From: Eutreptiella sp. 'Long Island Sound 2002'
Lineage: Eukaryota; Euglenozoa; Euglenophyceae; Eutreptiales; Eutreptiaceae
Length of the DNA: 64,000 nucleotides
Direction: 5' to 3'
NCBI GenBank assembly: GCA_964036045.1
Contig: OZ038381.1
Span: 157,918,283-157,982,282 of the forward strand
Positions within the stretch are counted from its first letter, which is position 1. Every line of letters starts with the position of its first letter. The notes beneath the pieces are model-generated. The model saw only the letters and a program-made list of their open reading frames with translations, was not told the origin of the DNA and made no database searches. This document shows positions 1 through 61,689 of this stretch, one piece after another. Made by a program: the position numbers and the translations under genes.

Positions 1-1039
1 CCTTAACAGCTGCAGGTTCCAGATAGCCATCGGGAGATTCACACCCTGTAAGTCTGGCAGATAGGTGCTCAGGAGATCGGTTTTTGAGGTCAGAAAGGGT
101 CAGGCCACAATTTTCGGCCATGACCTCTTTTAGTAGCACCTGGTCTAGGTCACACAGGGGTACAGGATTGAGAGATCCATCAACGATGGATAAGAAACTG
201 GCCCACTCAGGGGCCTGCATAGCTGTGTCTGAGTCCTCAGGCACATAGATGGGACTGTCGGGGAGTTGCACTCTTCCCATGGTCATTCGATCTAGCATAC
301 GGCGCCAGTAAGCGTGTTCACCAGAGCAGCGCGAGTCAGGGGTGCACATGACAACCCTTCCTCCCTCATAAGCGATTTTGATTAGAACCTTCGCGAGCAG
401 GGAGAAGGGAGGGTTAGCATACGCTAGGCCCATTGCTTTCCAGAAGAAACGGACAGCCTGGTTTAAATGTTTCGAGCAGTACAACTGCATGATGTGCTGT
501 TGTCGGCTCGCAAACAATTCCACATGGATCTCATCCAGGTTCACCTGAAGGGCCGCCAGTCCATTTTCAAGAACGTGACGGGCCAATTGGTAGTTTTCAG
601 TACGATAGTTAGTCTTGGATGCGTAGCGCAGCCCAGACTCTTTTCGTCCTGACAGCTCCAAAGGTACGGAGAAGAGCCCACTGCCAAAGTAGCAGTGCAA
701 AGAATAGGGGCGCTGGAGAGACAGCATTTTTACCTGGGGGTTTCTTCGTAGGAAGTTGGTACCTATGACGATGTCAAAGGCGTCGGTGTCCAGCACTCTG
801 CAGTGTTGGGTCACAGTTTTGTCGCCCAAGCATATAGTCACATTGACTCCCCCCAAGGAATGGATGGTACGCCCATCCCCTACTCTTATGGCCACGGTCT
901 TAGCTTTCTTGAAAGTCCTTAGCAGGCGCCGGGCCCCTATGGAAAGTGTTGCACCGGTGTCAAGCACCGCTTCAAAACCTTGATCCCCAATTTTCACGAG
1001 GATCCAAAAAATTAAGTCCTGCTCTTCGGAGCCGCCCCC
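1..1039 (-). CDS. Element A copy 1: protease and Dam-like domain of pol, partial, open at left edge
   Basis: Reading frame on the minus strand that continues without a stop from just after the gag stop (1042-1040) to the window edge. It has no ATG near its start, so it must be made by readthrough from gag, with which it is in frame. A retropepsin core is visible: DTGAT near 933-919 (catalytic Asp) and the IGTNFL segment (usual I-L/I-G-x-D-x-L) downstream. It is followed by a segment with VELFAS (about 523-506), NPPF (415-404), RVVMCTPDS and a W-R-x-LLD-like stretch. That layout resembles the Dam-like methyltransferase domain known from DIRS-type elements; this match is from memory and needs a profile search. 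RT itself would lie beyond the left edge. The frame is intact over the visible 346 codons, unlike copy 2 at 32 kb, which is cut inside this domain. Confidence 0.8.
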
Positions 1040-1042
1040 CTA
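1028..1042 (-). promoter_or_regulatory. Candidate stop-readthrough site, element A copy 1
   Basis: Minus-strand codons read GAG TAG GGG GGC GGC TCC, and the same frame is open both before (gag) and after (protease). UAG followed by a purine-rich triplet is the context used by gammaretroviruses for gag-pol readthrough. Copy 2 at 32.76 kb has the identical stop and following codons. Readthrough itself is inferred. Confidence 0.55.
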
Positions 1043-1815
1043 CTCCTCATCAGGGAACTTGACATCCACCCCTGCAGCCATGAGGGACTTGGCCATCCAG
1101 GCCAGTCGCCTTTTCTTGGAGTTATTCCCCTCAGGGGAAGCGTTATCCCCCTGTGGGCGCTTCTTGGGGTCACCTGCGGCAGGAGGGGGAGTAGCAGCGG
1201 GCGCTGATGAGCGTCTCTGGGGGATAGGGGGTCCACCTTTGCCACCCCCCTTGCCACCTCCTTTACCACCTTTATCCCCGTTCGGGGGATTTCTGGTGGG
1301 TTCTCGGGTCTTCTGGCGTTCAGCCTCCTGTCGCTTGAGTTTATCACTCTCGCGTTTCTTTATGTGACATTCGTCTTCGTAGTGACGACGTTTGCCACAA
1401 TAGCCACAGGTGATGGTACACCTCGAATGATCGTGATGGGTCACAGGTTTCCCATCCTTGGTATGCTGCTGTCGTTTCATCTGCAGCATACAGCTACTGC
1501 GGTGATCGCAGTCAGGGGCATGACAAGGCGCCCCCTTGTCATTGACAGGTTTGCAGTAGAACAGAGGGGGTGTACCTGCATCAGGTTTAACCTCATTCAT
1601 GGCGCGTAGGTTACCCCTCCCTTTACCACCTCCCTGGTCGGTGTTAGTGGCATTTTTAGGCCCTTTCCCTTCGCCACTTTCGGGGGTAGGGGTACCACCT
1701 CGACCCAAGTCCTTCTTGAGGAATTTCTCCATGTGGGAGTCATTCTCCCTCTCAAGAGCTAGCTCAATCAGCAGGTCCACCAGTTCGTCGTACGAGTGGG
1801 TCCGGCTTTTCCTCT
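1040..1815 (-). CDS. Element A copy 1: C-terminal part of gag with CCHC knuckle
   Basis: Gag polyprotein fragment. The zinc knuckle CGYCGKRRHYEDEC fits C-x2-C-x4-H-x4-C and would bind packaged RNA. Upstream of it is a second Cys/His cluster (CHAPDC...SSC). The tail is Gly/Lys-rich (GGKGGGKGG) and ends in the acidic PDEE before TAG at 1042-1040. The 5' end is cut at about 1815, where homology to copy 2 (32.76-33.53 kb) stops, just before a GCTAGGTAGGTA repeat. There is no true start in the window. The next downstream frame is protease in the same frame. Confidence 0.85.
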
Positions 1816-1819
1816 CAGA

Positions 1820-2385
1820 AGGTAGCTAGGTAGGTATCTTCGGGAGCTCGGGATGCCTCCTTTGACAAAGCAGGAAGAAGGTCTTACCAAGGGGACATCC
1901 TGTCCCTCCCACTGCCCTATGTCAGGTGCCTCTTGAGCCGCTCCCGCATGTGCTCGGGAAGGCATTTTCGCGGCCACCCGGTCCATGTGTCCCAGGTGGG
2001 AGGGTGTCCCCACATGTGTCCATGGGTAGGGCCACATGCCCCCTCCTTTGGGCGGCAGCTCTTGGGGCTGCCCAGCCGTGTGGAGTATCTCTCACCACAA
2101 GGGGTATTGCTCCCGCTTGTCTACGGTACGACCGCCTCTCCCTTGTGGTTTGAGTTGCGGGGCCACTCTGCCTGGCAGGCGGCCCCCTCCTGGACTGTGT
2201 ACTGGCTCGCCTGTCACCGGTTGCTTCCATGGCTCCGGGTGACGTTTGCCATGGTCCCCGATGCAGCCTGGCCGGGCTCAGACCAGTGGCCTTGGAGTAC
2301 TGCTCCTGCCCCTGGCCCGGTGGGTCGGCCGGGTCGCCCCGGTGTGTCCAACCCATGGGGTGTTGGGTCTTTCCTGTCCCTCGTC
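1820..2385 (+). repeat. GGTA-anchored GC-rich block 1
   Basis: Starts at a short GCTAGGTAGGTA run exactly where element A copy 1 stops, and leads into the 65-bp minisatellite. The layout (GGTA run, about 550 bp of GC-rich unique DNA, then a minisatellite) parallels the block at 5.66 kb that leads into the 116-bp satellite, although the sequences are not obviously the same. No coding gene is supported. Confidence 0.4.
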
Positions 2386-3140
2386 CGCCCTATGTGTGCG
2401 CGGTGTCCCGGGCCTCTTGGCTCCTGTTCACTGGTGTGCTCGCGCGGTTTGTTGTGTCGTGTCTGCAGTGTCCTAGGCCACTTGGCTCCTGTTCACCGGT
2501 GTGCCCGCTCGGTGTGGTGTGTTGCGCGTGCGGTGTCCCGGGCCCCTTGGCTCCCGTTCACCGGTGTGCCCGCTGAGTGTGTTGTGTTGCGTGTGCGGTG
2601 TCCTGGGCCACTTGGCTCCTGTTTGCCGGTGCGCCTGCTCCGTGTGTTGCTTTGCGTGCGCGTTGTCCTGGGTCACTTGGCTCCTGTACACCGGTGTGCC
2701 TGCTCTGTCTTTTGTTTTGTTTGTGCGGTGTCCTGGGCCACTTGGCTCCTGTTCACTGGTGTGCCCGCGCGGTTCGTTGTGTTGTGTCTGCGGTGTCCTG
2801 GGCCACTTGGCTCCTGTTCACCGGTGTGTCCGCTCGGTGTGTTGTGTTGCGTGTGTGGCGTCCTGGGCCCCTTGGCCCCCGCTCACCCGTGTGCCCGCTC
2901 GGTGTGTTGTGTTGCGTGTGCGGTGTCCTGGGCCACTTGGCTCCTGTTCACCGGTGCGCTCGCTCGGTGTGTTGCTTTGCGTGCGCGGTGTCTTGGGCCT
3001 CTTGGCTCTTGTTCACCGGTGTGCCAGGCCGTGGTGTCTCGTCCCTTTGTTGCCCTCGGTGCACGCGCGTGTGCGGTGTCCTGGCCCTCGTGGCGCCCGT
3101 TCACCGGTGTGCGCGCTGTGTGCGGTGCGCGTGTGTCATT
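2385..3140. repeat. 65-bp minisatellite, about 11 units
   Basis: The motif GGCTCCTGTTCAC recurs at 2419, 2484, 2549, 2614, 2679, 2744, 2809, 2874, 2939 and 3004, a constant 65-bp step. Units differ by scattered substitutions. As 65 is not a multiple of three and the units lack stops, all three plus frames stay open and give long false proteins rich in CAVSWATWLL-like repeats. Confidence 0.9.
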
Positions 3141-3782
3141 GGTGGCTGTGTCCCTCTTCCTCCCCCCCTAATTTTCGTTTTTCTTTTTTTGATGAAAAAA
3201 AAAAAAAGGAAGACAGGGGCGCGGGTACACTGCAGGCACAGGCCAGGGCAGCTGGTGCGGCGGTGCAATAGTGCTGTGTCCTCTGGCGTGTGTCGTCGGT
3301 GCTGTGGCGGCGGTCGCGCCCCAGGGGTGCGGCTCGCGCGTCCTGATGTACACGGGTATCGGCCAGGCTGGGTTTGGTTAGGTGTCTCTTTGCTTGTGGA
3401 GCTGGCTGGTTAGGCGGCTCTGTGGGCTGTGCGTGTGGGCTGTGGCTACGTTGTTCCCTCGGCGGGCCTGGTTAGGAGTCAAGCGTTAGCGGTTTCGGGG
3501 TGTGGCTCGGGTTTGATTTGTGTTTGGGTTTTGGCTCGGTTAGGCGGTTGCGACGGTAGTGGGCCTGGGTTCGGTGCCTTTAGGCGTATTGGTGCCCGTT
3601 GTTGTGTGCGTTGGCGTCCTTCGGCGTCCGGTTCGTTTGGTGACTTCTGGGCGGGGCCTGGCGTGGCGCCCCGTGGTGGTGGTTCGCTGGGTAACGGGGT
3701 TAGGTGGCGGCGCCGCTGGCCGGGGGGTCAGGCGCGTCGTGTTGTGTGGCGCGCAGGGCTCCTGGGGTGCTTTGGGTGCCGC
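3141..3782. other. GT-rich DNA without a gene
   Basis: After the minisatellite comes a T-run and A-run (about 3173-3208: T-rich, GATG, then 13 A) and GT/CG-rich sequence. I see no recognisable coding or RNA gene. The A-run could be a retroposed tail, but no element body is clear. Confidence 0.4.
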
Positions 3783-5640: not shown

Positions 5641-5654
5641 TAGTCGGCGGGGAG

Positions 5655-6150
5655 GAGGTAGGTAGGTAGGTAGGTGCTCTCGGTCGTGGAGAGGCGCCCC
5701 ATGGTTGCCCCTGGCGTCGCCCCTGTGACGAACAGGAAGAGGTTCCGCGCGTGAAGAGGGGAGGCGGCTTACTTCCCGCTAGACCTGACTGGTGGCCCCC
5801 AACAAAGCGGCCCCGGGCAACACCGGGAGGGCCGATCGCCGCCAGCGTGACTGCTTGTCATGCCGGGAGGGTGGTCCCCCGTGCTTGCGCACGTCTCCTC
5901 CTTTGGGCGGAACCCTAGGGGTTCACCGGACTTCCTGGCGTATCCCGTTCCCAAGGCATGCATGCATGTTCTTGGTCCTGGGGTTCCGAGGTGCTTGGGT
6001 GTCGCACGCTCCGCCTCCAGTCCCACAGCAGTGCAGGTCTTAGGATGCAGCCTTACCCCCGGTCTCTGGATCTCGTTTGGCCGGGTCACCTACATACCAC
6101 GGGCTGCCTCAGTGCCCGGGCTCTGGACACTGGGTTTCCTACTGTTGCGT
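5655..6150 (+). repeat. GGTA-anchored ~490-bp block, plus orientation
   Basis: Begins with four to five GGTA units, then GTGCTCTCGGTCGTGGAGAG and so on, to TTTCCTACTGTTG. The same block is on the minus strand at about 16560-17050 and 18470-18965, so it is an inverted copy. In all three it is followed by GT-rich satellite-like DNA. It is probably the 5' end or promoter region of a mobile element that inserts at, or starts with, GGTA repeats. Confidence 0.7.
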
Positions 6151-6169
6151 GGCGCTTGTGTTTGGGTCT

Positions 6170-8830
6170 GGGTTGTGGTTGGGTTCGGGTTTCGGCTGCG
6201 CCCGGCACTCTTGCCTGGGGTGTTGGGGTGTGTGTGTGCTTGTGTGTGTGCTCTCCTTGCACCCAGCCACTCCCGGCACGGGTGCGCGGTGTGGGTGTGT
6301 GTGTTTGGGCTCGGGTTTCGGCTGCGCCCCGCCACTCCTGGCTGGGGTGTTGGGCTGTGTGTGTGCTCCGCTTGCACCCAGCCACTCCTGGCCACGGGTG
6401 CGCGGTGTGGGTGTGTGTGTTTGGGCTCGGGTTTCGGCTGCGCCCCGCCACTCCTGGCTGGGTTGTTGGGCTGTGTGCGTGCTCCGCTTGCACCCAGCCA
6501 CTCCTGGCCACGGGTGCGCGGTGTGGGTGTGTGTGTTTGGGCTCGGGTTTCGGCTGCGCCCCGCCACTCCTGGCTTGGGTGTTGGGCTGTGTGCGTGCTC
6601 CGCTTGCACCCAGCCACTCCTGGCCACGGGTGCGCGGTGTGGGTGTGTGTGTTTGGGCTCGGGTTTCGGCTGCGCCCCGCCACTCCTGGCTGGGGTGTTG
6701 GGCTGTGTGTGTGCTCCGCTTGCACCCAGCCACTCCTGGCCACGGGTGCGCGGTGTGGGTGTGTTCGTTTGGGCTCGGGTGTCGGCTGCACCCCGCCACT
6801 CCTGGCTGGGGTGTTGGGCTGTGTGTGTGCTCCGCTTGCACCCAGCCACTCCTGGCCACGGGTGCGCGGTGTGGGTGTGTGTGTTTTGGCTCGGGTTTTG
6901 GCTGCGCTCCGCCACTCCTGGCTGGGGTGTTGGGCTGTGTGTGTGCTCCGCTTGCACCCAGCCACTCCTGGCCACGGGTGCGCGGTGTGGGTGTGTGTGT
7001 TTGGGCTCGGGTTTTGGCTGCGCCCCGCCACTCCTGGCTGGGGTGTTGGGCTGTGCGCGTGCTCTGCTCGCACCAAGCCACTCCAGGCACGGGTGCGCGT
7101 TGTGGGTATGTGTGTTTGGGCTCGGGTTTCGGCTGCGCCCCGCCACCCCTGCCTGGGGTGTTGGGCTGTGTGAGCCCTCCGCTTGCACCCAGCCACTCCT
7201 GGCGACGAGTGCGCGGTGTGTGTGTGTGTGTTTGGGCTCGGGTTTTGGCTGCGCCCCGCCACTCCTGGCTGGGGTGTTGGGCTGTGTGTGTGCTCCGCTT
7301 GCACCCAGCCACTCCTGGCATGGGTGCGCGGTGTGGGTGTGTGTGTTTGGGCTCGGGTTTCGGCTGCGCCCCGCCACTCCTGCCTGGGGTGTTGGGCTGT
7401 GTGTCTCCTTCGCTTGCACCCAGCCACTCTTGGCCTCGGGTGCGCGGTGTGGGTGTGTGTGTTTGGGCTCGGGTTTCGGCTGCGCCCCGCCTCTCCTGGC
7501 TGGGGTGTCTGGCTGTTTGTGTGCTCCGCTTGCACCCAACCACTTTTGGCCACGGATGCGCGGTGTGGGTGTGTGACTTTGGGCTCGGGTTTCGGCTGCG
7601 CCCCGCCACTCCTGGCTGGGGTGTTGGGCTGTGGGCGTGCTCCGCTTGCACCCAGCCACTCCTGGCGACGGGTGCGCGGTGTGGGTGTGTGTGTTTGGGC
7701 TCGGGTTTCGGCTGCGCCCCGCCACTCCTGGCTGGGGTTTTGGGCTGTGTGTGTGCTTTGCTTGCACCCAGCCACTCCTGGCCACGGGTGCGCGGTGTGG
7801 GTGTGTGTGTTTGGGCTCGGGTTTTTGCTGCGCCCCGCCATTCCTGGCTGGGCTGTTGGGCTGTGTGCGTGCTCCGCTTGCACCCAGCCACTCCTGGCCA
7901 CGGGTGCGCCGTGTGGGTGTGTGTGTTTGGGCTCGGGTTTTGGCTGCGCCCCGCCTCTCCTGGCTGGGGTGTTGGGCTGTGTGCGTGCTCCGCTTGCACC
8001 CAGCCACTCCTGGCACGGGTGCGCGGTGTGGGTGTGTGTGTTTGGGCTCGGGTTTCGGCTGCGCCCCGCCACTCCTGGCTGGGGTGTTGGGCTGTGTGTG
8101 TGCTCCGCTTGCACCCAGCCACTCCTGGCCACGGGTGCGCGGTGTGGGTGTGTGTGTTTGGGCTCGGGTTTTGGCTGCGCCCCGCCACTCCTGGCTGGGG
8201 TGTTTGGCTGTGTGCGTGCTCCGCTTGCACCCAGCCACTCCTGGCACGGGTGCGCGGTGTGGGTGTGTGTGTGTTTGGGCTCGGGTTTCGGCTGCGCCCC
8301 GCCACTCCTGGCTGGGGTGTTGGGCTGTGTGCGTGCTCCGCTTGCACCCAGCCACTCCTGGCCACGGGTGCGCGGTGTGGGTGTGTGTGTTTGGGCTCGG
8401 GTTTCGGCTGCGCCCCGCCACTCCTGGCTGGGGTGTTGGGCTGTGTGCGTGCTCTGCTTGCACCCAGCCATTCCTGGCCACGGGTGCGCAGTGTGGGTAT
8501 GTGTGTTTGGGCTCGGGTTTCGGCTGCGCTCCGCCACTCCAGGCTGGGGTGTTGGGCTGTGTGTGTGCTCCGCTTGCACCCTGCCACTACTGGCCACGGA
8601 TGCGCGGTGTGGGTGTGTGTGTTTGGGCTCGGGTGTCGGCTGCGCCCCGCCACTCCTGGCTGGGTTGTTGGGCTGTGTGCGTGCTCCGCTTGCACCCAGC
8701 CACTCCTGGCCACGAGTGCGCGGTGTGGTTGTGTGTGTTTGGGCTCGGGTTTCGGCTGCGCCCCGCCACTCTTGGCTGAGGTGTTGGGCTGTGTGTGTGC
8801 TCTGCTTGCACCCAGCCACTCCTGGCTGTG
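6170..8830. repeat. 116-bp satellite array, about 23 units
   Basis: ACCCAGCCAC recurs at 6261, 6376, 6492, 6608, 6724, 6840 and 6956, steps of 115-116 bp, and continues to 8.83 kb. Each unit carries the TGGGCTCGGGTTT core and CGCCACTCCTGGCTGGGG. Units vary by point changes and by GT-dinucleotide length. The unit is nearly stop-free in most frames, so it yields false ORFs of over 700 residues on both strands. Low-copy versions of the same motif follow the sister blocks at 16-16.5 and 18-18.4 kb, so the array probably grew from that element. Confidence 0.92.
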
Positions 8831-9997
8831 TGTGTCCTTGGGTGCTGTGCTGTGCGTTCCCTGTCCTCTTCGCTCTGTGCGGTGCTGTGCTTCGTTGTGC
8901 TGGTGCGCTTGCGCTGTGCTGTTCGTGTGGTGCGTCCTGTTGCTGGCGCCCGGTGCTGTGGTGCGCTGCCGTGTGTTGTGCTGTTTCCTTTGGTGTGCTG
9001 TGGTGCGGTGCTGGGTCTGGTGGCCCGTGGTTGTCTGCTGGTGCCGTGCTGTGGCGCCCTGCTGTCCGTTTTGCTTTGTTGGTGTTGCTGGTTTGTGTCT
9101 TGTCCCTGTGTGTGCGGTGCTGTGTTGCGCTGCGCGTCGTGTTGTTCAGTTCCGGTTGCGTCTGCGCTGTTGTTGGTGCCTCGTGCTGTTGCGTGTCCCT
9201 GTGTGTTGTGGTGTCTCCCTGGGCGTTCTGCGGTGTGGTGGTGCCGCTCTGGTGTGTCGTGGTGTCTTGCTGTGCTGTGCGTTGTCCTGTGGTGTCCTGC
9301 GCCCTGTGCCGTGTCCTGCGGTGCTGTGCTGCCTTGCGGTGTTGTGCTGGTGGGCTGTGCTGTGCGGTTGTCTGCGCTGCTGGTGTTTGTTTTTCCTTTT
9401 GTCCTCTTTTCCTTTGCTAAATACCCCTGCTGTTTTTCCGCGCCTTTGAAAACTTTCCGAAAACCAAAAACTTAAATGTTTCTCCTTAGAAAAATCAAAC
9501 TCTACGCAACTCACGCACGCAGGTAAGCAGCAATATCAAGGTGAAATTTCTGACTTACGTGTTGCCACGCGGCCGCGAAGATGGTGGTGTTGCTTGCAAG
9601 GGGTTGACCCCTTTTCCCCCAGGGCCGGTCGCCTAAGCTGACGAAAAGGAGTGAGGGCAGGCACGAGAGAAGGGAGGTGGGTGCATGGAGAAGGAAAGAA
9701 AAGGAAGGGAAGCAGGGCGAAGGGACGCGGCGGCTTAGAAAATTTCTTTTCGAGTTTTACGCGCTGCTCGCGACGCGTTTTTCTTTGCGCCTACGGCTAG
9801 TTAGACGTCGTGAGGGACGGCGTTAGGGTCCTACCAGCGTTTCGGTGTTTACGGCGCTAACTATTCACCTATTTCACGTCGAAAAATTTTTTGTCGCGTT
9901 TTTACGCGTTTCGCAGCGCGCTTTTTGGCCTAACCGTTTTTTATGCTAATTAGCTTTATTTTCAGCTATTCAGAAAATTTCATCCGTCGTGTTTTAT
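8831..9997. other. GT-rich tail and unique AT-richer stretch, no gene
   Basis: 8831-9410 is TGC/GTG-rich and lacks clear repeats or coding signal. 9410-9997 is less biased and contains a GAAGATGGTGGTG stretch and several CGCGTTT-type short motifs. Nothing matches a known gene family. Confidence 0.4.
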
Positions 9998-12306
9998 CTA
10001 TCTTTTTATTTCGTGGAGGAAGGCGTCGAAGAGGAAGTCTCGGACGCCTTCCCCCAGGGTGGCCGCCTGGACCAGGGTGTTTGCCCGCATGTGCTGGGTG
10101 GTGCCGGAGCTGTGGAGGCGCAGCACCTCCTGGTCCCCGAGTCCCCGGAGGTGCTGCCGTACCGCTGCGGGGTTGTGTATGGCGTAGGGCTCGGCCGGTG
10201 CGGCGGCTGGTGGTGCGGGGTGTGATGGGGGGGGTGGTGTGGGTTGAGGGGGGGTGGTCGTCGTTGTCGCGTGTGGGGTCCGGTGATGGGGTTTCTTGTG
10301 GCTGTCGCGGGAGGGGGGGTTCGGGGTGGCGTGTGTCGGCAGGGGCATCGACGTCAATTGGCTGGTGCTGGATGCCGCGTGTTGCGTCCGTGGCCTGGTC
10401 TCATGGGGGGGGCGGGGGGGGGGTGGTGTGGGGCTGGCACTGTTGGTGGTGGGGGGGACGGGGCTGGGTGTTGTGCTGGCTGGGGGTCTGGGCGTCCCTC
10501 TGGGTCGTGTGGGTGTTGCGTGTGTGCGCCGTGCGGTCGTTGCGGTTCTTGGCTGGTTGTGGTGCCAAGGTGTGGGTGGGAGGCGGCCGCATTGGCGTCC
10601 GGGTGGGGCTGTGGTCCGTATGTAATGGGTGGCTGCTGGTGGATGGTGCTCGCTGGTACGGGGTGTGGGTGGGGGGGCTGCTGGTGGTGGTGGGGCGCTC
10701 CTACTAGGCCCTGGTGTTGCTGGTGTGCGTGCGCGGCTCCCCGCGGGTCCATGGGGGTGTACCGTGGCTCGTGTGTCGTGGGCCCGTGTAGTGGGGGCGG
10801 CGGGTGGTGCTGGACCGCGTGGTGGTGGTGTTGAGGGTGTGCTGGTTGTGTGTGGTACCCCGGCGTTGGTGGGTGTGGTGGTAGGGGCTGGTGGTGGTGG
10901 AATACGTGATGGTGTGGTGCGGTGATGTGTGCCATGTGGGGTGGGTGGTTCGCGGGGCCTGGTTGTGCTGGGGCGTGGTAGGGATGTAGCTGGTGGGGGT
11001 CGCTGTAGCATGGGGGCATCAGGGGGTAGGGGTTCGGAGGGACGGGGGCATGGTGCTGGTGTTGGTGGTGCCATGTCCCCTGGCTCTGCGCGTATGGTGG
11101 TCCTGGCATGGTGTGGACGTCTGCGGGCGGTGGTGGCTGACTGGGCTGCAGGGTTTGGGTGCTGCGGTACGGTGGTGGTGGTGGGCGCTGGCGGGGGCGG
11201 TGCTGTTGGTGTGCCCCGGGGGTCTGGGCGTGGGGTGGTGCGGTGTGGCTGGACCCGGGCCCTGGTCGGGGTGTCGCGCCCTGCTGGCGGGTGCGCTGGC
11301 CGGCCCCCTGACCTGTCTTGGTCTTCTTGGCCTGGTGGGTGTCGGGGGCGGGTGAACCCCCCTGTCCCTGTGGGGGCGATGGGGAGCGGGCGTGCCAGTG
11401 GTGTGCCTCTCGGAGGCGCGTCTCGAGGCCTCTGACGTAGGTGCGCTGGTCCGTGAGGCCCATCCGTGTGGCCATGGCCTCGTCGGGGGCGGCCAGGTGG
11501 GCGTCCCGAAAGAACGCCCAGCCCTCCGGGGGCTTCAGTTGTGCGGGGTGGCGGTGGTGTGCCGGGTAGAGGAGTGCGCTGAGTGGGTAAGGTGTTCCTT
11601 TGCGTCGGCCGAGGGTGGTGTTGAACCGGCGGCAAGTGATGCGGAGGTAGGCTGCTATCTCCTCTGGTGCCGTGTCTGCCCACGCCTCTGGCGTCAGGGC
11701 TGCTGCTTGGGGGGCAGGGAGTTGTGGGTCTGAGAGGTGTAGGTCACGGTGGTGGAGGTATAGGGCGAGGAGGATGTGGCGGGCCGCCACGTTCAAGCCG
11801 CCCCTGCTGTGGCGTAAGGGTGGGCTGTGGGGGGGCAGGGGTGTGCTGCCCGTGGCCACGGCTATGGTCCATGCATGGTCCGCCGCGTCCGCCACGTAGT
11901 ACCCTCCCAGGTGGTCCCGGAGGGTGTCGGTGAGTCGACCGAAGAAGCTGGGGTGGCTGGCAGGGGGGGGTGCGGCTGGGACCGCGGGCCGCTCGCGGTG
12001 GTGGGGGTTGAGGTCCCCGCAGTGGGGGCAGTGGGTGAGGCGGTGCGCGGCTCCCAGGCAGACCCAGTGGTCTGGGTTGCAGGGCAGGGCCGTCTGTGGT
12101 AGCCGCTGGCGTACGCAGAGGGGACATGCAGTGGCTGGCGGTCGGTGGTACCTGTGGACGGACGGTGGCGTGGGGGGATGGGGGCTGGCGGCACGCGCAT
12201 GCTGGTTGGCGTGTGTGCGGTGCCTGTGGTGCCCGTGTCTGCCGTGCCAGTGTTGTGCTCGCTGGAGTAAGTAAGTAAGTAAGGGCGGCCGCGTCCGCAG
12301 CCTCAT
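9998..12306 (-). CDS. D-family Pro/His-rich zinc-cluster protein, copy 1 (one frameshift)
   Basis: Longest copy of a repeated gene. The N-terminal part has CPLC, then C-x-PDHWVC, then HCPHC: eight Cys/His in about 40 residues, a probable zinc cluster. A helical region follows (DTLRDHLGGYYVADAADHAW; NVAARHILLALYLHHRDL; EAWADTAPEEIAAYLRITCR), then a long Pro/His/Gln-rich linker. The first frame stops at 10354. The conserved C-terminus (NPAAVRQHLRGLGDQEVL; GEGVRDFLFDAFL) is in another frame that stops at 9998, so a frameshift lies in the linker, probably in a C run. In D2 (14.8 kb) both parts are in one frame. A nucleic-acid-binding ORF1 of a retroelement is a fair guess; I know no family match. 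Confidence 0.6.
12262..12284. repeat. TAAG microsatellite at the 5' edge of D copy 1
   Basis: Four TAAG units (AGTAAGTAAGTAAGTAAGG) sit exactly where homology to the other D copies ends. Other family edges carry GGTA or TACC runs, so tetranucleotide repeats mark element boundaries here. Confidence 0.7.
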
Positions 12307-12369
12307 CTGACTCCTCCTTGGTTGTTTTACATGGTGGCCGCCTCTGGCGGGAAGGAGTGCTTTCCACCA

Positions 12370-13055
12370 TCAGTTCCCCTGGCTACCCCTGTCTCACCTC
12401 ACGGCCCAGAACTTCAACCAGGTTCCCTTAGGGCATGACCGGTGGTAGGCTCCCTTCAGTCGCTGCCCTCACGGATTCAGCTCCTTCCGGTCACCCTTTG
12501 AAGGATCCCCCGGCCTTCCCCCCCTGGCACAGCCTTTTGGGCGCCTGCAGGCGGGTTTCCTGTGGATAGCCCTCGCCGACAGCGGAGCATTTCTCTCTGT
12601 CAACCACATTCCACCTCTCCCCATCCCTCACGGGCTGGAGTAACCACTCGGCTCCCAGATGCACTTGGTTGTCGTCCATCCACGGCTGGAGGCCAGGGGG
12701 CAACCCTTTCCACGTTCCCCTTGGTCCCGCTCACGCGTGAACCTACGTGTACTCAGGCCATTGACCCGGGGATCTCAAGGTCAACCCTCACCCCTGCGGA
12801 CACCTCGTGGCTGTCCCGGAGTTCAGGGCATTTTCCCGACTTCCCGTGGCCAGGTTCCCCATGGTTGGCCCATGGTTCACCACTCCATGGCGACTGGTTT
12901 CCCAATCCCACGGGGCTGTTGCTTGGCGCTTTCGGCCTCCCTGCTCTTCCCATGTCCCATTCCCCTTTGCCTCATCCCGGCACCGGCCCGTTCCCAGCAT
13001 CCCATGGACTCCCTACCCCTTCGGGCCGTTGAGCAGCCCTAGCCACACGCCCTCG
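12370..13055. other. C/T-rich unique sequence without gene
   Basis: Pyrimidine-rich on the plus strand with many CCC and TTCC runs. Open frames on both strands are low-complexity and match nothing I recognise. Confidence 0.35.
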
Positions 13056-13059
13056 CCCC

Positions 13060-24811: not shown

Positions 24812-24814
24812 GGG

Positions 24815-31560: not shown

Positions 31561-31569
31561 CGCGGTGGG

Positions 31570-45665: not shown

Positions 45666-45748
45666 CTTCGTTCGCCCTTCTGCTTATATATGACTGATCT
45701 TGGCGCACTGGTTGTACGGCACGGGGTTGCTGCCAGTACGCAGAGACA

Positions 45749-45766
45749 GTCTGCCTCTTGCTACCA
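45749..45766 (-). promoter_or_regulatory. B1 primer binding site
   Basis: TGGTAGCAAGAGGCAGAC follows the 5' LTR on the element strand. It resembles the initiator-Met tRNA PBS (TGGTAGCAGAG) with one extra A. Confidence 0.7.
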
Positions 45767-46561: not shown

Positions 46562-46563
46562 TA

Positions 46564-47413: not shown

Positions 47414-47421
47414 CCCCTCTT
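47414..47421 (-). promoter_or_regulatory. B2 polypurine tract
   Basis: AAGAGGGG next to the LTR start AGTAAG on the element strand. Confidence 0.7.
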
Positions 47422-51506: not shown

Positions 51507-53165
51507 CACCACAGGGTTACTCCCCAACAGTCGTGCTTGTGAGGATAGCACCAGCATACCCGCGAGCAATTCCTGCTCATAGGTGGAGTAGTTCCCCCTG
51601 GCCTGGTTTCACTTCCAGTTCCAGTGGCCCAGAGGTACTAGGACCCACTTGTCGTCAGGGTAGCTGTGCTTGAGGGTTCCATCTCGGTTGAGACCTTCTG
51701 TCCCCCATTGGGAAATGGCCGAGTCGAACTCCTCCTTCTCTAGTGCTTGCCATTGGAACAACGTTCCTCCACCGCCCACATTGCTGGCGTCGGTCACCAG
51801 GATAATCTCCCCCTGTGCCCTAGGCACGCCCAAGCACTTAGCGTTGGCTACCTTGTCTTTGAGCTCGTCAAACGCTTGTTGCGCTTGTGGGCCCCAGCGC
51901 CAAGTAGTACTCTTCTTGATCAAGTCTGTCAGAATGGCGCTGGTGTAGGTGAAGTTCTTGATGTGGCGGCGATAGAAGTTGCACGCCCCAATGAAACTGC
52001 GTACATGATGAAGTCCTTTCTTGGGATCTTCGTGTCGTACCTTGGCATCCATCAGGGGTTTGGCCTTAGAGGCCGCTGGGGTCCACCACCCATAGCCAAC
52101 GTCAAACCCCAGGTACTGCATGGTCTCCTGCATGAACTCACACTTCTCCAGCTTGAGTCTTGTGTCGTTCTCCTGGCAGACCGCAAAGAACTCACCCAAG
52201 AGGATTAGGTGATCCTCCTGCCAATTTGTCCCGAGGCATACATCGTCGATGTGAGCCCTCATCTGGGCACCACGGGATATGAGCTCCTGCACCTTAGGTC
52301 TCCTTCGTAGGATGGACAAGATCTTGTTCATCAGCTCTTGGAATAGAGCTGGTGCGTTGGCCACGCCAAACGGCATGACCTTCCACTTGAACACCCTCCC
52401 CTGAGGGGTGATGAAGGCCAGTGGTTCCTGTGCGTTGGGCGTCAGGTCCACTTGCCAGAATCCGCTCCTCTTGTCCATCTTGGTCTTGTAGCGGCAGGAG
52501 GCTATCTTCTCAAGGGTAGACTCCATATTGGGAATGGACCCTGAGTGGTTCAGCGTCTTCTTGTTCAGCTCTCCGTAGTCCACTACCAGCCGTTTGGCTG
52601 TAGACCCAGGTTTAGCCACCAGGAAACAGGGGCTGCAGTGTAGGGGGTAGTCCTCGTCCTTGTACTCCAGGACTAGGCCAGCGTCGATACATTCTTGTAT
52701 CTGTCGCTCGATCTCGTCGGCCTGCTCTTTAGGAGCTGGATAGGGTCTCCTCCGGATCTTGTGACCCACGAACTCGGGTTTCAGCTTGAGGTCCATCTGT
52801 ACCAGCTTGTCACATGAGGCTGGAGGGGGTAGTTCTCCGAACACCTCCAGATAGGTCCTCATAAGCTTCTGTACCCGCGGGTCCAATACCTTGATCTTGT
52901 CCTCCATGTCCTCGTCAGAGTGTAAGTTGCTTGCCCCCTGAGTAATAGACGTCGGGAGGTGGTCCTCCACCGACTCTTCGCCCGTGGTAGTGTCCTTCAG
53001 CCCTTGGTAGGCATACAGAAGGTCTTGTTCAACCATCTCCGATGGACGATGGCAACATAAGTATGCTCGAGGGGGTTCACATACACATTCCTCCGAGAGG
53101 TCGTCCTCCTTTGGGGTCCTCACATGGGCGCCCCATATGCTCTTCATGAGCTTAAGATCTACCTC
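51507..53165 (-). pseudogene. B2 pol middle: RT and RNase H
   Basis: RT with VVDYGELNKK, MPFGVANAP and AHIDDVCLG (His in place of Tyr in YxDD, as in B1), then RNase H (LVTDASNVGGGG). TGG is changed to TGA at 51611-51609 (Lys-stop-Asn-Gln where B1 has Lys-Trp-Asn-Gln). A frameshift lies near 53165. Confidence 0.88.
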
Positions 53166-54150
53166 CTTTGCCAGGTGGTGATCTTCTGTTCGAGGTCCTC
53201 CTTCAATTGGGATAGGTCTCCCATACGTCCTTGCTTCAGTGGCCATGAGCTGCGGGTAGGCTTCGCGTAGCATAGCTTTCTCGCCACCAACTTCCTCTTG
53301 GAATCCACATGCTCCCTGAGCCTGGATCGAGGGTCCAGCTCCTCGTCCACGGGGTCATCCACCCTCATGGAGAGTAGGGGTTTCAGTGGGGCGACGTACT
53401 CGGCGTTCTCCACTTCCTCCACACAGGTCTGCACGAAGAGGGCGTCGTGCTCAGTTTCGTCATCTGAGTGGATAGAGCTAGGTAGCTCAGATAGTCCACA
53501 CTCAGAGACTCCATCAGGAACAGGTACATGACAGGGAGAGTTGGGGGCGTTGGTGTCAGTCACGACGTACTCATCTCCTCCGGGTGTAGTCTCAACAGCA
53601 TCTTGAGGTCGTAGGCGATCGTTCAAGTCACCCAAGGCGAGTCCGTCGCTTTCTCGTTGTATAGCCTGGACCAGAGTCGGGTCCAGATCCTCCCAGGGAA
53701 TGGAGGTAAGACCTCCGTCCACCATGCTAAGCATACTCCCCCATCCGGGCTTCCCATTAGGCGTCTTGCGTCCCAAAGGCACATAGATGGCCTCATCAGG
53801 CAAACGAACAGAGCTGATAGTCAGCCTGTCCAGGAGGTTTCGCCAGTACTCGTTGCCCCCATGGGCTCCCCAATCGGGGGAACACAGAACCATACGGGAA
53901 CGTTCCAAGGCCACTTTGGTCAGCACCTTCCCCAGTTCACTGAACCTGGGGTTCCCGTAGGCCATCCCGAAAGAGGGCCAGTAAAATTTGTAGCTGCAGT
54001 TCTTCCCCTTGCTGCAGTAAAGGTCCAGTACATGCTGCTTGTGGCTGGCGAACAACTCCACACTCAGGTCTTCTCGAGAGTAGCCCAACTCCTTCAGACC
54101 TTGGTCTAGGACTTCCCCCAATAGTTGATAGTCCTCAGTTTTGGAGGCCG
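53166..54150 (-). pseudogene. B2 pol N-part with Dam-like domain, 5'-truncated
   Basis: Homology to B1 begins at AASKTEDYQLLGEVL (about 54150). Contains VELFASHKQHVLDLYCS, YGNPRFSELGKVL and VLCSPDWG. Gag and protease are missing. The ATG at 54316 gives a 55-residue chimeric leader from unrelated sequence. Confidence 0.85.
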
Positions 54151-54151
54151 C

Positions 54152-54686
54152 CTGAAAGTGCTGCCCTAGGTCGTGTATGGTGCCGGAGGGCTCAGGGCCG
54201 GCAAGACCGGGGGGGCAGGCACGCGAGGAGTCGACCTGAACGCTGCTGTTGGGGGTAGAACCGGATACACGGACACCAACGGAGGCAAGAGCGGCGACAA
54301 CGGAGGCAAGATCCATGCTGATTGTTATCCGGCAAAAAATCCCAGTCTATGAAGAAAATTGATGCGGATATTCCTAAGTACATCTGAGTGTCCATATCTA
54401 TCTGAAAAGATTTATATAAATCCGATTGTGAAAAAATATTTGGCCGATCTGGCTCGCGCACGCGCGTCAGCGGCAAATGGCGATTCCGGGTAAATGATCG
54501 GAACGCGGCAGATTTAGGATGAATGGACCGCGGAATCAGATCCGGCACATCAGAAATATATAGGTCTGATCCTGAGACTGAGCTGCGGGGCGGCGATTCC
54601 GCCGAAGCAGAGAAAATGACCAAAATGTAGCCAATCCGGGGCAGATCTGTGAAAATCTGAGCAGATGGGGGTTAGCCGCACTTACA
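54152..54686 (-). repeat. Probable start of element C 3' LTR, end not defined
   Basis: On the minus strand TGTAAGTGCGGC follows a purine tract, the usual TG start of an LTR, and CTATATATTTC (about 54563-54553) could be a TATA box. The other end is unclear, as it joins the B2 fragment at about 54150. Confidence 0.4.
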
Positions 54687-56499: not shown

Positions 56500-57830
56500 T
56501 CAATTCGGCCAAGCACGAATACATGTGACCACCAACCTGTCTGGTGGGGCCCTCGTACGGCTTGGGCGCTGCAAATCAGCGGCCGAACTCGAAGCTTGGT
56601 CCTCATTTGGCTCCTGGGCTGGCCTGACCGCAGGAGGGGGGATCGACGGATCAGCTCTGGAAGGTGGCTGCTGAGGGCCGTAAAAGGCTGGATCTCGATT
56701 CACCACAGGTCTTTTTCCGTCGCTCTCCACCTGTCTGTCTGGTTTCGACAGACAGTCAGTCAGGAGTACGCCAATTTCGGGGTGCTTCTTGAGGAAGTCG
56801 ATGAACCCCTTGGTGTACCCATGGACAAAAGAATGGGCTGGTTCCCAGTTGTTGTGACTGGAATCAAAGCCCCTCCACTCACATAGAAATTCCCATTCGC
56901 CCTTTTCGTCACGTCTTGCCTCTAAAATCCTCTTGAGTTCGTACTTCCCCCCTTCGATGACCCGATCGGACAAAAATTTCGAAGTCCAAAAAAGGGGTTT
57001 AACCCGATCCTTGGGGGAGAGGATCTCTCTCTTGAGGCGATCGCCCGAAACTTCAATTTCCCTGCTGACATCCACACGAATCCTCCACCTGTTCTCACCT
57101 AGACGCGCTGTAACAGCGAATGGCCCCTCCCACAAGGGAAGAAGCTTATGATCTCCGTCCAGGGTGGTTTCGGATTTTCGAAGCCAAACTCGATCATCGA
57201 CTTCAAAATTGTGGGGGTTTTTTCGGCCTTGATTCTGGACCCAAAGCCAGTCAGCTTGATGCTTATCGATTAATTTCGAGACAGTTTTTTCTGCTCGTTG
57301 GATTTCGTCCAAAAACAACGAAGCATCTTTACAAGGGCGAGGATTATTCAACGGCATGTTCCACCAACACTTCTTTCGTCCAAAGACAATTTCATTTGGA
57401 GAAAGGCCATGGTACAAGGGCGTGTTGTGGTAACGGCGAAGCAATGCGAAGAGAACTTCAAGCCAATGGAAGTCTTTCTCACTGGCGAGCTCCTTACGAA
57501 GCATATTTATAATGGAGCGGCCGGCTCTTTCGCCAGGCAGCGCTCGATGTGAGTGGATTTCACATCTCAGGTGGTGGATTCCAAGGCGAGCACATAATTC
57601 CTTCCACCATTCGGAGGTGTACTCTTTGCCTGAGTCCGTAACCACCTCGAATGGGACGTCCCAACCTCCCATCCAGGTCTGCGCGCACCATTTGGCGGCA
57701 GCCTTGCCAGTCATCGACTCGATGTTACAAGGCAACACCTGAATGTAGCCGGAATGACGGCACTGAATAAGGAGCACACCATTGACTTTTTTATTCGTCC
57801 AATGGCACTCTTCGTCGTCGAGTTCACCAA
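56500..57830 (-). pseudogene. Element C integrase C-half and chromodomain
   Basis: Holds VVTDSGKEYTSEWW (Asp) and PGERAGRSI (Glu, 35 residues later), completing the D-D-35-E triad whose first Asp (VTSDFFEL) is in the upstream frame. Then comes the GPY/F-like region (WLRKSETTLDGDHKLLPLWE; PFAVTARLGENRWRIRV) and the chromodomain KYELKRILEARRDEKGEW...RGFDSSHNNWEP. A Pro/Ser-rich tail ends at 56500. The frame differs from RT because of a 1-base shift near 57830. Confidence 0.87.
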
Positions 57831-60800
57831 GAGTTCGAAAAAATCACTGGTGACTCTGTTAAAGAGGCGCTCCGGAATAGGGTGTGGCCTCAGATGGCCG
57901 TGCTTCTTCGCGCTGGGGGGCGTCGAGACAGCACATTGGGCACATCCGGCGGCTACTTTCATACAATGAGTATATAGCCTTGAGCCAAACAACCTATGTT
58001 TAATCATCGACCATAATCTACGGCCATGTGCGTGGGGGGACTCCCATTTGTGCCACCAGTTTAACACTCCGGGGGCCAGGGCGTCTGGTACGCACAATTT
58101 ACCCTCCATCCACAGCTTCCCCCCATCCAACGAATATTCAGAATAAATTCCATCCTTATGAGCATCTTTGGATTTGAGATTCTCAAAGACCTCTTTAAAC
58201 ATGGAATCATGCAGATAATCATTCGTCCAGTCACGGATGATCAGGGAATCTTTCGGCAGGGGTGGAGTTTTGGCCGGATCTCGACGCTTAATGCCCTGAA
58301 TCAACCGAAATCCACTTACTGGTCGGGTATACTCAAACCGTTTCACACTCCCTGAGGAGGGATCGGTGACTTTCTCAACGACTTTCAGTGATTTGGTGAC
58401 AATCTCATGGGCATGCGCCGGATCTGAGAAGGCCGTGATGTCATGACACGGTAATGTATGCCGTTTAACAGAGCATTGCATGCATTCACGTCGAATGAGC
58501 TTTTTTTCTTCCTGATCCCACTCGATTACGACGTGGCGGTCCTGCTCCGTACCATGGATGTTGGTACTTTGCAGCCCCTCTGAAGCGGGGTAAGCCCATC
58601 GGCTCAGAGCATCCGCTACCGTGTTGTGTTTTCCAGGCAAATACGACACATGGAGGTCAAACAAACTGAGAAATTCATGCCATCTGGCCCGTCGACCAGC
58701 TGGGCTCGCGATTGTATCAATGTGTTCGGTGGCCCAATACTCCAGAGATCGATGATCCGTCAGGACCTCGACTCGATTGGTGCCAACCCATGATTGGTAC
58801 TTCTTCAGCGCGCAGATTATGGCATAAGTTTCTTGCTCACGCGGTGACCATTGCATCTGGCGTGGAGCTAGCTTCCGAGACCAAAATGCAAGAGGGTAAT
58901 GATCACCTGTGGCTTCATCAACCTGTTCAAGGACAGCTCCGATCGCGTACCTAGAAGCGTCGGTTCTTATGTAGAAGGGTCGGTCGAATTTCGGCACATG
59001 CAACGTGGCGACTTCGCAGAGGGCCGCCTTCAAGTGATGGAAGGCCTCCTCGCACTCGTCGGTCCACTTGACACGAACCTTTGAACCTGCCTTGCCCGCA
59101 TCTCTCCCTACCTTCAATAATTCAGTGAGGGGGGCAGCAAATTTGGCATAATTCGGCACAAAAGTGTGGTAAAAATTGCAACAACCCAGGAATCCTCTCA
59201 ATTCCGTGATCGTCTCAGGGCGCTCCCACTTCTGAATAGCGACGAGCTTCCCTGGACTGGGTCGTCGGGTGCCATTCTCAAGGAGAGAACCACAAAATTC
59301 GACTGATTTTAAAAATAGTTTTCCCTTCTTTGGCCCACAAATCAGCTGATTGGCATCAAGAATGTCCAAAACCTGGTTCAGCTGCTTTTCATGTAGGGCC
59401 ACCAGCTCGGCTTCGGTCAGTCCCTCCCCCTCTGTCGCGATGATTATGTCATCTATGTACACACTCACGAAGGCACGAAGCTCAGGATGAGCTGTAAAAA
59501 GCACATCCTCCATCATTCTTTGAAAAAACGAAGGGGCATTCTTCAGGCCCATGGGCATGACCGTCCACTGCACTGGGCCACATGGCGTGCACATACAGGT
59601 GAGAGGTCGGCTGTCCTTCCTCAACGGCATTTGGTGAAAGCCGTGACGGAGATCCAGCACAGAAAACAAACGACCTCTTGCCCTCTTGGCGATTTCCTCC
59701 TCAATGAGGGGCAGGGGGTGTGAATCCGCCTTGGTTTCGGCGTTGAGGTTGCGAAAATCAACAACCATTCGCCAACCATCAATAGTGTTCTGGTCTGCAG
59801 GCGGCGGCTTCGGGACTGTGAAGGGTGCACAGCACCACTCGCTGGTCATACAACCCTCAAGCCAACCAAATTCCCTGAGGTTTCTCTCGATTATTTTTCT
59901 GAGTATCTCATGTTTCTGTCCATGGTTCTCATAAGGACGCTGTTTCTTCGCCTTGTACCCTTCACGAAGCTCGATGAAGGCTTCACCGAACTGCCCACGG
60001 ACAGGGGGGTCTTTGATCAACTTCCCCGAAAGGGTTGTGTCCTTCCGTTCCTCAAAAATCTTGTCTCTTTTCTTGGAACACAACTCAGTGTCCACCTGAT
60101 CGCCAGGAATTACTGTCGAAAAAACTTTGGCGATTTCTTCGGCCTTGGCAGGAAGAATCTTCTTACGGATGTCCCTAAAAAGGTCCGTATCAACTGCCTC
60201 TTGAGGATAGGTGGGTCGAGTGTCGACATTCCAGAGATTCTCTTCGTGATCCAGCTCCTCGAAAGGATCTATGAAAGCTTCTACACGGGGTTTTTCATAA
60301 AAAACTCTGAATTTGCGGCGCGAAGAAAATTTTTTCGTCGTCCGTGCGCCGTAGATTCTTTTGGATGTAGATCGTATTGGGGAAGAGGGAGACGAGGCGG
60401 ATCCATTTGACGTTGGATCACCTTCGGCATTTGACGGACAAAAATCAGAAAAAATAGATTCATCATCAGTACCACGCTCAACCTCAGATTCAGACCGAAC
60501 ACAGGAATCAGTACTAGAATCAGCAGAATCAGAGTCAGAAAGTTTTCCATCCACCAGGAATGCAAGCGAACTCCAGGGCCGCTGTGGCAGGGGACCTGTG
60601 TCGTCCCTGGCATACAGCTTAATCTTCCTGGGAAGTTCGATGTAATCTACACAAATGTCTTGCAATTCCTGAAACCAAGGCTTGTCGTCCCACAAGGGCA
60701 CAACTAAAATCGCCTGGGTTTTATCTTGCTTGATTTTGTGGATGACCTGCTGGATTAAGTGAAACGGAGGATTAATCCATAACTTCTTGTCCCATTTATG

Positions 60801-60998
60801 GGTCCAAGCGTCGCGAAAGTGCTTGTCAAAGCGTTTGTTCTCGCGGTTAGCAAAGGCATCATACTGTGGCCAAAAGGAATGGTGTTCATAAAAATATTCA
60901 CAAATTGTATCGCGCCATTTGTCGACAACTCTGTAGGATGAAGAGTGCCAGCGCGAAGGGCGTCGTGGCTGGGAGTCCCTACGAAGACATTCTAACTC
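57831..60998 (-). pseudogene. Element C pol: Dam-like domain, RT, RNase H, integrase start
   Basis: Frame open from after TGA at 61001-60999. The Dam-like part is WPQYDAFANRENKR, WINPPFHLIQQVI (NPPF at 60773-60762) and AILVVPLWDDKPWFQEL. Then an acidic linker and RT (MVVDFRNLN, VMPMGLKNAPSFF, SVYIDDIII at 59459-59448, a canonical YIDD). RNase H: YIRTDASRYAIGAV, QETYAI, LTDHRSLEYW, NTVADALSR. Integrase begins (HKWESPHAHGRR; CAQCAVS; VTSDFFEL). It then shifts frame near 57830. One stop and two frameshifts separate it from protease and from the integrase end. Confidence 0.9.
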
Positions 60999-61170
60999 TC
61001 AGGAGTAATCGGCACTCCCATTCACCTCTGCAATGGTGACATCTTCGCCAAACTTTGGTGTAACCTTTTGCTTCAAAAATTCTTCTGCACTTTTAAACCC
61101 TGCGTGCAAAAAAAGAAATTCAGGACGCTCCAAGGGACCTGACTCCAGCAGAAAAACAACGCCGATGACC
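60999..61170 (-). pseudogene. Element C linker between protease and Dam-like domain
   Basis: In the pol frame: GVVFLLESGPLERPEFLFLH and KFGEDVTIAEVNGSADYS, then TGA. Protease reaches this frame only by a frameshift near 61170. The TGA is probably a decay mutation. Confidence 0.6.
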
Positions 61171-61686
61171 TACGGGCGCCACCCTGTTCTTGCGAAGCCA
61201 AGGATGGCCCAAGTAAAGGTCATACTTTATGTCGGCACGATAGAAGTAGTCATCCTTAAGAATAACTTCCTCCACATTGCCTTCTTCACAAAGGTCTTGA
61301 GCGACCAAATGAGTTGATATATAACAACCGCGTTGCCCACCTGCGAGAGGATGTCCAGAAACTCCCTCGAGGGTAACAGGATGAGGCGAATCAAACACGC
61401 AGTCGTCAGGCAAAAAGGAATTGGATTGGAGATTTACCTCCGATCCATTGTCACACAAACAAGTGGCGAGGTGGAAATTGCCCTTGCAATCAGAGACCCA
61501 CAGCTTTGTGACAAACTGACGGGCCCTGTGCTTGGACTGTACACCAACCTCGTCCACTACAACAGAAGGATCCGCTGCCGGATCCAGGGGAGAGGAGACA
61601 AGCGACCCTACATCAAGTAGTGGTGGAGAAGGAATCTGGGGATCATGCCTGAAATCGCCTGGGGAGGGGCGATTTTCGTGGCTCCC
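61120..61686 (-). CDS. Element C protease-like domain, in frame after gag
   Basis: Opens directly after the gag TAG. Contains CDNGSEVNLQS (catalytic-type Asp at 61452-61450, with Asn in place of Ser/Thr of D-S/T-G) and YDLYLGHPWLRKN (the I-L-G-x-x-W-L motif). Before it lies a Pro-rich linker (RPSPGDFRHDPQIPSPP). DNG in place of DSG or DTG is odd for a retropepsin, and activity is uncertain. Confidence 0.7.
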   Translation of the reverse strand, partial: GSHENRPSPGDFRHDPQIPSPPLLDVGSLVSSPLDPAADPSVVVDEVGVQSKHRARQFVTKLWVSDCKGNFHLATCLCDNGSEVNLQSNSFLPDDCVFDSPHPVTLEGVSGHPLAGGQRGCYISTHLVAQDLCEEGNVEEVILKDDYFYRADIKYDLYLGHPWLRKNRVAPVGHRRCFSAGVRSLGAS

Positions 61687-61689
61687 CTA
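61651..61689 (-). promoter_or_regulatory. Candidate stop-readthrough site of element C with possible pseudoknot
   Basis: GCC TAG GGG AGC CAC, in frame from gag to protease. A stem of GAAAATCGCC (61678-61669) with GGCGATTTC (61659-61651) starts about 8 nt after the stop. Its loop (CCTCCCCA) can pair with GGGGAG that begins at the last base of the stop codon. The arrangement is like the MLV gag-pol readthrough signal (UAG plus pseudoknot). Confidence 0.55.

Follow-up and report, generated by a model that had tools for sequence, protein, structure and literature searches.

An in-frame stop codon kept between gag and protease in Ty3/gypsy families of Eutreptiella is probably bypassed by readthrough

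Is a stop codon that separates gag from protease a scar of decay or a working part of a retrotransposon? The question is raised by a stretch of 64,000 nucleotides (nt) of Eutreptiella sp. 'Long Island Sound 2002' (assembly GCA_964036045.1, contig OZ038381.1, positions 157,918,283 to 157,982,282; hereafter the window), in which an inspection of the letters without database searches (the sequence-only reading) had described three gypsy families, A, B and C, that each split gag and pol by a single in-frame stop. We found that copies of A, B, C and a further family, E, retain the stop at one and the same codon, and that the single copy of a family D has it too; it is UAG in A, C, D and E and UGA in B. 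On the strength of these sequence comparisons we consider it probable, at roughly 0.85, that the in-frame stop has a function in these Ty3/gypsy elements and is bypassed by programmed stop-codon readthrough.

All four junction stops of the window lie on the minus strand at the positions that had been claimed, with protease in the gag frame in every case. The junction of the first A copy (A1) reads GAG GAG TAG GGG GGC, with the stop at 1042-1040, and the second copy (A2) has identical codons at 32765-32763; the B junction is GAG TTC TGA CAG GGA (stop at 43172-43170) and the C junction AAC GCC TAG GGG AGC (61689-61687). The absence of a nearby start ATG for protease was likewise borne out, since no AUG lies between the stop and the catalytic site in the window copies of A, B and C: the first in-frame ATG past the stop is codon 104 in A, where the catalytic DTG is codon 26, and codon 49 in B, where the catalytic site is codon 27, and C has none in 188 codons, its DNGS motif being codon 78. 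Other parts of the sequence-only reading had to be qualified. Both A copies have the stop, but they are not independent, as they are 97% identical across 1388 nt without a gap and represent one ancestral stop; the codons in which they differ (32 non-synonymously, 7 synonymously) look neutral and give no sign of selection since the split. 'Exactly one stop' holds for the gag-protease junction, but not strictly for the window copies, because B has a second TGA in gag. As for the three gypsy families, B and C carry pol domain signals, and the reverse transcriptase (RT) of A falls outside the window. A and B are related families, the gags of their relatives P0298 (A) and P0174 (B) being 33% identical across 566 columns, and the window C gag matches a B relative with an E-value of 0.007 only.

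We searched the window's own assembly (2.28 Gb, 2205 contigs) with DNA patterns built from the junction flanks of the window copies of B and C, in which the stop codon was left free, and used the same patterns written backwards as a control. The B pattern occurred at 4829 genomic places and the C pattern at 3827, and neither control occurred at all. According to our own counts over the listed places, the stop codon was TGA in 98 of 100 listed for B, and the two exceptions (TTA and TCA) are each one mutation from TGA; the complete set of 47 zero-mismatch places included 45 with TGA, the remaining 53 having one mismatch. The codon after the stop was CGG in 96 of these places and CAG in 4, so that the window copy shows the minority form, and TGA CGG occurred jointly in 94. 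For C, TAG GGG was found in 100 of the 100 places listed, all of which lie on one contig because of the order of the list. Family A gave 31723 first-look candidates, among which 121 were scored, 3 of them with a stop within the 332-residue query. We read 28 loci: 8 were taken automatically, one of which is the window copy, and 20 were chosen by hand among the scored places on various contigs. All 27 copies whose alignment spans the junction, counting that of the window, have TAG, as do 26 of 27 sampled copies outside the window; the exception, L002, has lost its gag side, carries CAG at the site and does not align across the junction. One further in-frame stop was met in the A stretches read. 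The tabulation that the sequence-only reading had proposed as a test of decay therefore came out the opposite way, mostly stops being found instead of a majority of sense codons or scattered stops, and its argument that the position was kept while the codon changed from TAG in A to TGA in B is supported. Selection on both sides of the stop, which it had also put forward for examination, was evident in A from the third-position excess of pairwise differences (1148, 911 and 3076 by codon position on the gag side; 1089, 582 and 4445 on the protease side), and we conclude that the coding sequence on both sides of the A stop is under purifying selection. Equal scores are shared by many A copies, in which protease sits in an open frame of exactly 1600 codons, and this suggests a recent burst.

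Protein searches gave a second view of the junction, in which the ends of open reading frames (ORFs) tell that the sites are stops and the residues of fused ORFs tell which stop. The stop type was inferred from these residues before the DNA of other copies was read, when the codons of the window were already known. Among the best 120 of 256 B relatives, 86 are gag ORFs that end at the junction, 15 are gag-protease ORFs fused across it, all single-member clusters, and 18 end elsewhere; the 86 stand for clusters totalling 1636 sequences, one with 1406, in which the members' own ends were not seen. P0134 was excluded from the fused set because its gag tail is not carried across the site. Together with four from another search, the 19 fused B ORFs have R at the site in seven cases, C in four, W in three, and S, L, T, Q and E in one each; 16 of the 19 residues are one mutation from TGA, and their likelihood favours TGA by a log-likelihood difference (lnL) of 8.6 over TAG and 9.7 over TAA. 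The A search gave 395 relatives among 7997 scored candidates. Within the best 120 of these 395, an alignment at the junction was obtained for 110; the ORF ends there in 85 (clusters of 1048), is clearly fused in 12, doubtfully fused in 2 and ends elsewhere in 11. P0314 and P0341, frame-shifted or unalignable, were excluded from the fused set. The 12 fused ORFs, again all single-member, carry Y (4), W (3), Q (2), S, E and M (1 each), 11 of them one mutation from TAG, and the likelihood favours TAG by 5.9 over TAA, 10.5 over TGA and 8.8 over the best sense codon. The fused variants of both families also show that gag and protease share a frame in the relatives. Fused and terminated ORFs differed in gag divergence (p 3e-6 in B and 5e-4 in A), a raw comparison that is biased because fused ORFs are included at lower identity; once the two sets were matched for gag, the difference shrank to p 0.01 in B (8 of 15 fused kept) and 0.05 in A (6 of 10 kept). 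The nine listed protein relatives of C do not locate its stop, which the DNA pattern search does: seven are protease ORFs starting at the first GTG past the stop, P0356 is a protease ORF starting elsewhere, and P0349 is a gag in which a deletion removes the junction.

A tblastn survey of the 200 kb downstream of the window, made with A, B and C queries, brought a second B copy (L029, TGA CGG), one copy of family D (L040, TAG GGA), which is related to C at 41-49% identity, and three copies of family E (L033, L034 and L046), with TAG AGG in all three. In each of these neighbours the stop lies between gag and protease in a single frame. The other in-frame stops of E are private to its copies (at +185 and +227, at +777, and at +257 codons), and E shows a third-position excess of differences in pol in 3 of 3 pairs and in gag in 2 of 3. 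The D copy carries more stops, both in gag and in pol, and in L029 there is a gag TGA that is absent from the window B. Protease in E is supported by Pfam (best 4.5e-06), as is RT in both D and E, and in D the ATG (codon 98) comes behind the catalytic motif (codon 78). Over the 264 kb of the window and these 200 kb, 9 of 9 junctions found, from five families, have one in-frame stop, a tally that depends on the three queries and could miss distant families.

The stops stand in four contexts, UGA-CGG in B, UAG-GGG in A and C, UAG-GGA in D and UAG-AGG in E. In table 5 of PMC3542737, which sorts viral readthrough signals into classes, UGA-CGG is type II, and UAG-GGR, UAG-G and UAG-R are type III entries; the contexts of A, B, C and D match leaky contexts of that table, and that of E fits its UAG-R entry only. 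Folding of the RNA past the stop, for which several lengths were tried, suggests a candidate 3′ stimulator in E and C only. At 100 nt the E fold had a z-score of -3.1 to -3.3, with none of 200 shuffles as good, and third positions show no differences among the three copies in the first 48 codons past the stop, against 4-10 differences in each stretch of 12 codons over the 144 codons that lead up to it; 5 of 21 later pol windows also had none. The C fold reached z -2.8 at 50 nt, beating 199 of 200 shuffles, and beat 198 at 70 nt. The D fold was weak (z -0.9 to -1.7, with 14-43 of 200 shuffles as good). One might speculate that A also has a stimulator: third-position diversity is 0.03 in the first 15 codons past the stop versus 0.20 in the 8 codons before, other windows on either side being equally or nearly as low, and folding of the A alignment gave z-scores between -1.4 and -2.8 relative to shuffled columns, both partners having changed in 0-2 pairs. 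The window B copy has a perfect 10-bp stem that starts 11 nt past the stop, a length found at 6 of 2183 in-frame positions. The B fold was not distinct from shuffles, and the two B copies compared do not support the extended stem-loop, starting about 8 nt downstream, that goes with type II signals.

If the stop is read through, most ribosomes would terminate there and release Gag, and a small share would decode it as an amino acid and go on to make Gag-Pol. Readthrough would thereby keep Gag-Pol low, as it does in gammaretroviruses and in Tj1 of fission yeast, and Gag-Pol would presumably be the sole source of protease and pol. B would use a type II context and the other families type III-like UAG-R contexts. 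We infer the decoding event from the conservation of the stop, the common frame, selection in A, the contexts and the lack of AUG, and readthrough, towards which the sequence-only reading had pointed, appears to account for these features better than the alternatives do.

Several points weigh against this interpretation. The codon counts cover 100 of 4829 B and 100 of 3827 C places, lowest mismatch first; by the order of the list, all the C and 53 of the 100 B places are the first on contig C1, and because the patterns were taken from the flanks of the window copies, diverged copies, in which loss of the stop would be commoner, are under-sampled. On the fused B residues alone, TGA leads the sense codon TGG by just 2.0 lnL. 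The evidence on structure is uneven, as E at 50-70 nt (z -0.5 to -1.1) is not distinct from shuffles, C at 100 nt beats only 184 of 200, and individual A copies give folds that barely, if at all, improve on shuffles (the best being A2 at 120 nt, z -2.1). The 10-bp stem of B is broken without compensation at 2 of 10 pairs in L029, the one other copy compared, and in a simple pseudoknot scan of A1, A2, B and C, 11-30 of 100 shuffles did as well as the real sequence. E has an ATG at codon 91, ahead of its catalytic DTG at codon 134, so that initiation at an AUG is possible there. The window copies themselves are dead. Tca2 of Candida albicans, whose gag and pol are also split, is a Ty1/copia element, of another superfamily. 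According to PMC2194720, readthrough in S. cerevisiae was not brought about by the Tca2 junction on its own, a warning that the local sequence need not cause readthrough of a UGA at this place and that such a stop can be bypassed in another way.

We weighed four other explanations. That the stops are plain decay, nonsense mutations of dead copies which fell at the junction by coincidence, accords with the state of the window copies (the second TGA and frame break of B, the frame change of C, the neutral differences of A1 and A2) and with the additional stops of the D copy and L029. It is nevertheless very improbable, because a stop is present in 98 and 100 of 100 listed B and C places and in 26 of 27 sampled A copies, because A and B hold different stop codons at a homologous place, and because the stops elsewhere behave otherwise, being private in E and, for the second TGA of B, replaced by sense codons in 90 of 90 recognised relatives. 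We attach equally little weight to hitch-hiking, in which a defective gag-only master with the stop would have been amplified in trans and pol would be dead. The dominance of one B cluster of 1406 members and the equal scores of many A copies could be taken that way; five families, however, share the architecture in several contexts, in A, B and E the third-position excess extends to pol (the junction being missing from the second B-like element compared for B), and the gag tails of terminated B clusters diverge down to 68% pairwise identity.

A change of the genetic code, by which the host would translate UAG and UGA, is most improbable to judge by the frames of the elements: two different stop codons are indeed involved, but TAG and TGA are almost absent from the rest of the long gag and pol frames, and such absence in gag would be unexpected under recoding. 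More serious, though still unlikely, is an arrangement of two cistrons in which protease-pol is expressed by internal or non-AUG initiation, by re-initiation or from a separate (trans-)spliced mRNA. The sequence is compatible with it, as the first in-frame GTG past the stop is codon 15 in A, 11 in B and 44 in C (window copies), the early ATG of E points the same way, and the Tca2 junction had promoter activity of its own in a reporter (PMC2194720). Set against this, pol follows in the gag frame without a spacer in all five families, no AUG stands ahead of the catalytic site in the window copies of A, B and C, and 114 B protease ORFs of the best 120 begin at the first GTG or close to it, of which 1 has a Met in residues 2-22. 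Programmed readthrough thus remains the reading that we prefer. A wider proposal is tentative, and we hold it at somewhat less than even odds: readthrough may be the general rule for Ty3/gypsy elements of this host, the stop having switched type together with a matching 3′ context while staying in place, in which case termination in the host may be unusually permissive and selection may act on the Gag:Gag-Pol ratio rather than on a particular signal.

The elements themselves are laid out on the minus strand as follows. A1 comprises the 3′ part of gag with a basic tail (1043-1825), an ORF that runs to the TAG at 1040-1042, which is followed by GGG; its Cys/His motif is zinc-finger-like. Beyond the stop, protease and a Dam-like domain continue in the gag frame until the window edge cuts them (2-1039; Pfam gag-asp_proteas 2.1e-07, Dam 0.019, below cut-off). 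A2 has the 3′ part of gag (32766-33599), the TAG, also followed by GGG (32763-32765), and protease with the start of the next domain (32150-32762), its likeness to A1 stopping at 32150. B is bounded by a 5′ long terminal repeat (LTR; 45762-46557) that is 94.5% identical to the 3′ LTR (35150-35945). Its gag is in two parts, an ORF at 44280-45683, with the first ATG at 45665, and 43173-44276, which contains a Cys/His motif. Between them lies the second TGA (44277-44279, next codon CAG); all 90 listed relatives in which the motif was recognised have K, R or W there, so that this TGA is copy-specific decay and serves as an internal control for the junction stop (43170-43172). The B protease (42843-43169; Pfam RVP 4.3e-04) has His for the catalytic Asp in the window copy, and the frame breaks near 42850, leaving RT, RNase H and integrase at 38992-42873 (RVT_1 7.2e-30, rve 1.8e-07) in a frame closed by a TAG at 38991, followed by a chromodomain remnant (38243-38608; Chromo 8.6e-04, below cut-off). 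A second B-like element (B2, 46618-54152) lies head to tail with B, its 3′ LTR adjoining the B 5′ LTR, and lacks the TAG at 38991; its pol is 95% identical to that of B, with 40, 37 and 91 differences by codon position, and the match stops before its own gag-protease junction.

In C, gag (61690-63732) was assigned by position and has no Pfam match, and the junction stop, followed by GGG, is at 61687-61689. The protease (61123-61686), in the gag frame, has no Pfam protease match and was recognised from its position, its motif and a 41% identity with D. The frame shifts after protease (61123/60998), and a Dam-like domain (0.0019, below cut-off), RT and RNase H follow at 57714-60998 (RVT_1 1.1e-25, RT_RNaseH_2 1.6e-29), then the integrase end and a chromodomain at 56503-57843 (Chromo 1.9e-06; rve 1.5e-05, below cut-off). 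B and C thus show the order of protease, RT, RNase H and integrase with a chromodomain that marks Ty3/gypsy chromoviruses, with several Pfam scores below cut-off, including those of the B chromodomain and the integrases, and the C protease recognised by motif and position. The proteases of C and D have D-N-G-S for the usual D-T/S-G triplet, a form shared by all 8 aligned C relatives and by L040 (1427-3769). The Dam-like domain, which we take to be N6-adenine methyltransferase-like from its NPPF motif, follows protease in A (2-1039), in C (57714-60998), where it precedes RT, and in the relatives P0334-P0346; in C relatives the protease frame runs on into it. An AlphaFold model of this C region had low confidence (pLDDT, the predicted local distance difference test score, 34). 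DAM domains are reported in DIRS elements in a passage of PMC6338049.

Elsewhere in the window we noted about 22 tandemly repeated 116-bp units, both strands of which contain long open frames (6161-8894), a second tandem array with a 65-bp period (2328-3147), and repeated blocks at 9998-20251, several about 1.9 kb apart and 96-98% identical, together with inverted copies of 5660-6192. A 383-residue ORF (24729-25880) matches endonuclease/exonuclease/phosphatase with an E-value of 2.3e-06. GC content is 0.60-0.68 over 4001-32000, with strong AT skew in most 4-kb steps, and 0.51-0.56 in the element-rich part. Scans of viral and of bacterial and archaeal contigs found no relatives, tRNA and Rfam scans of the window gave no matches, and a spliced-leader-like 12-mer had one 1-mismatch match in the window, which is chance level.

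Readthrough signals are otherwise known mostly from viruses, a single lineage at a time. Here one genome has several retrotransposon families, two with thousands of copies, that keep the stop in four contexts and so form a natural mutational series that could be used to learn which stops and flanks the host ribosome tolerates and whether the Gag:Gag-Pol ratio is selected. They also carry a warning for annotation, because such elements appear in the protein database searched here mostly as split ORFs and could be scored as dead. In the open-licence literature searched, as represented by titles, abstract openings and passages, we recognised no paper that describes such a mix of contexts in one genome.

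The view that Ty3/gypsy elements usually have one ORF or a frameshift, held by the sequence-only reading, needs qualifying, as an in-frame gag-pol stop is already known in the superfamily: according to passages of PMC4600332 and PMC10085805, the fission-yeast elements Tj1, Tosmo1-3 and Tcry1, of the Tf1/sushi chromoviruses, have an in-frame TGA between gag and the protease-RT-integrase region. As described in PMC4600332, Tj1 pol has no AUG and removal of the stop abolishes transposition. The families described here resemble these elements in the single in-frame stop between gag and pol. They differ in context, the fission-yeast TGA being followed by CT and the present stops occurring as UGA-CGG, UAG-GGG, UAG-GGA and UAG-AGG in one genome, in the weakly supported Dam-like domain past protease in A and C, and in the thousands of copies of two families. 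In having one frame and a UAG followed by G, A, C and D are like the gag-UAG-pol junction of gammaretroviruses of the murine leukaemia virus type, as outlined in PMC3542737; unlike these, they belong to Ty3/gypsy-type elements, and whereas the gammaretroviral type of signal has a compact pseudoknot about 8 nt past the stop, the simple scan of A1, A2, B and C gave no pseudoknot better than chance. With UGA-CGG in most listed places, B is like the type II signals of alphaviruses, tobraviruses and furoviruses in the same source, although the sole B stem examined is not conserved between two B copies. It also resembles Tca2, in which, according to PMC2194720, a UGA separates gag and pol.

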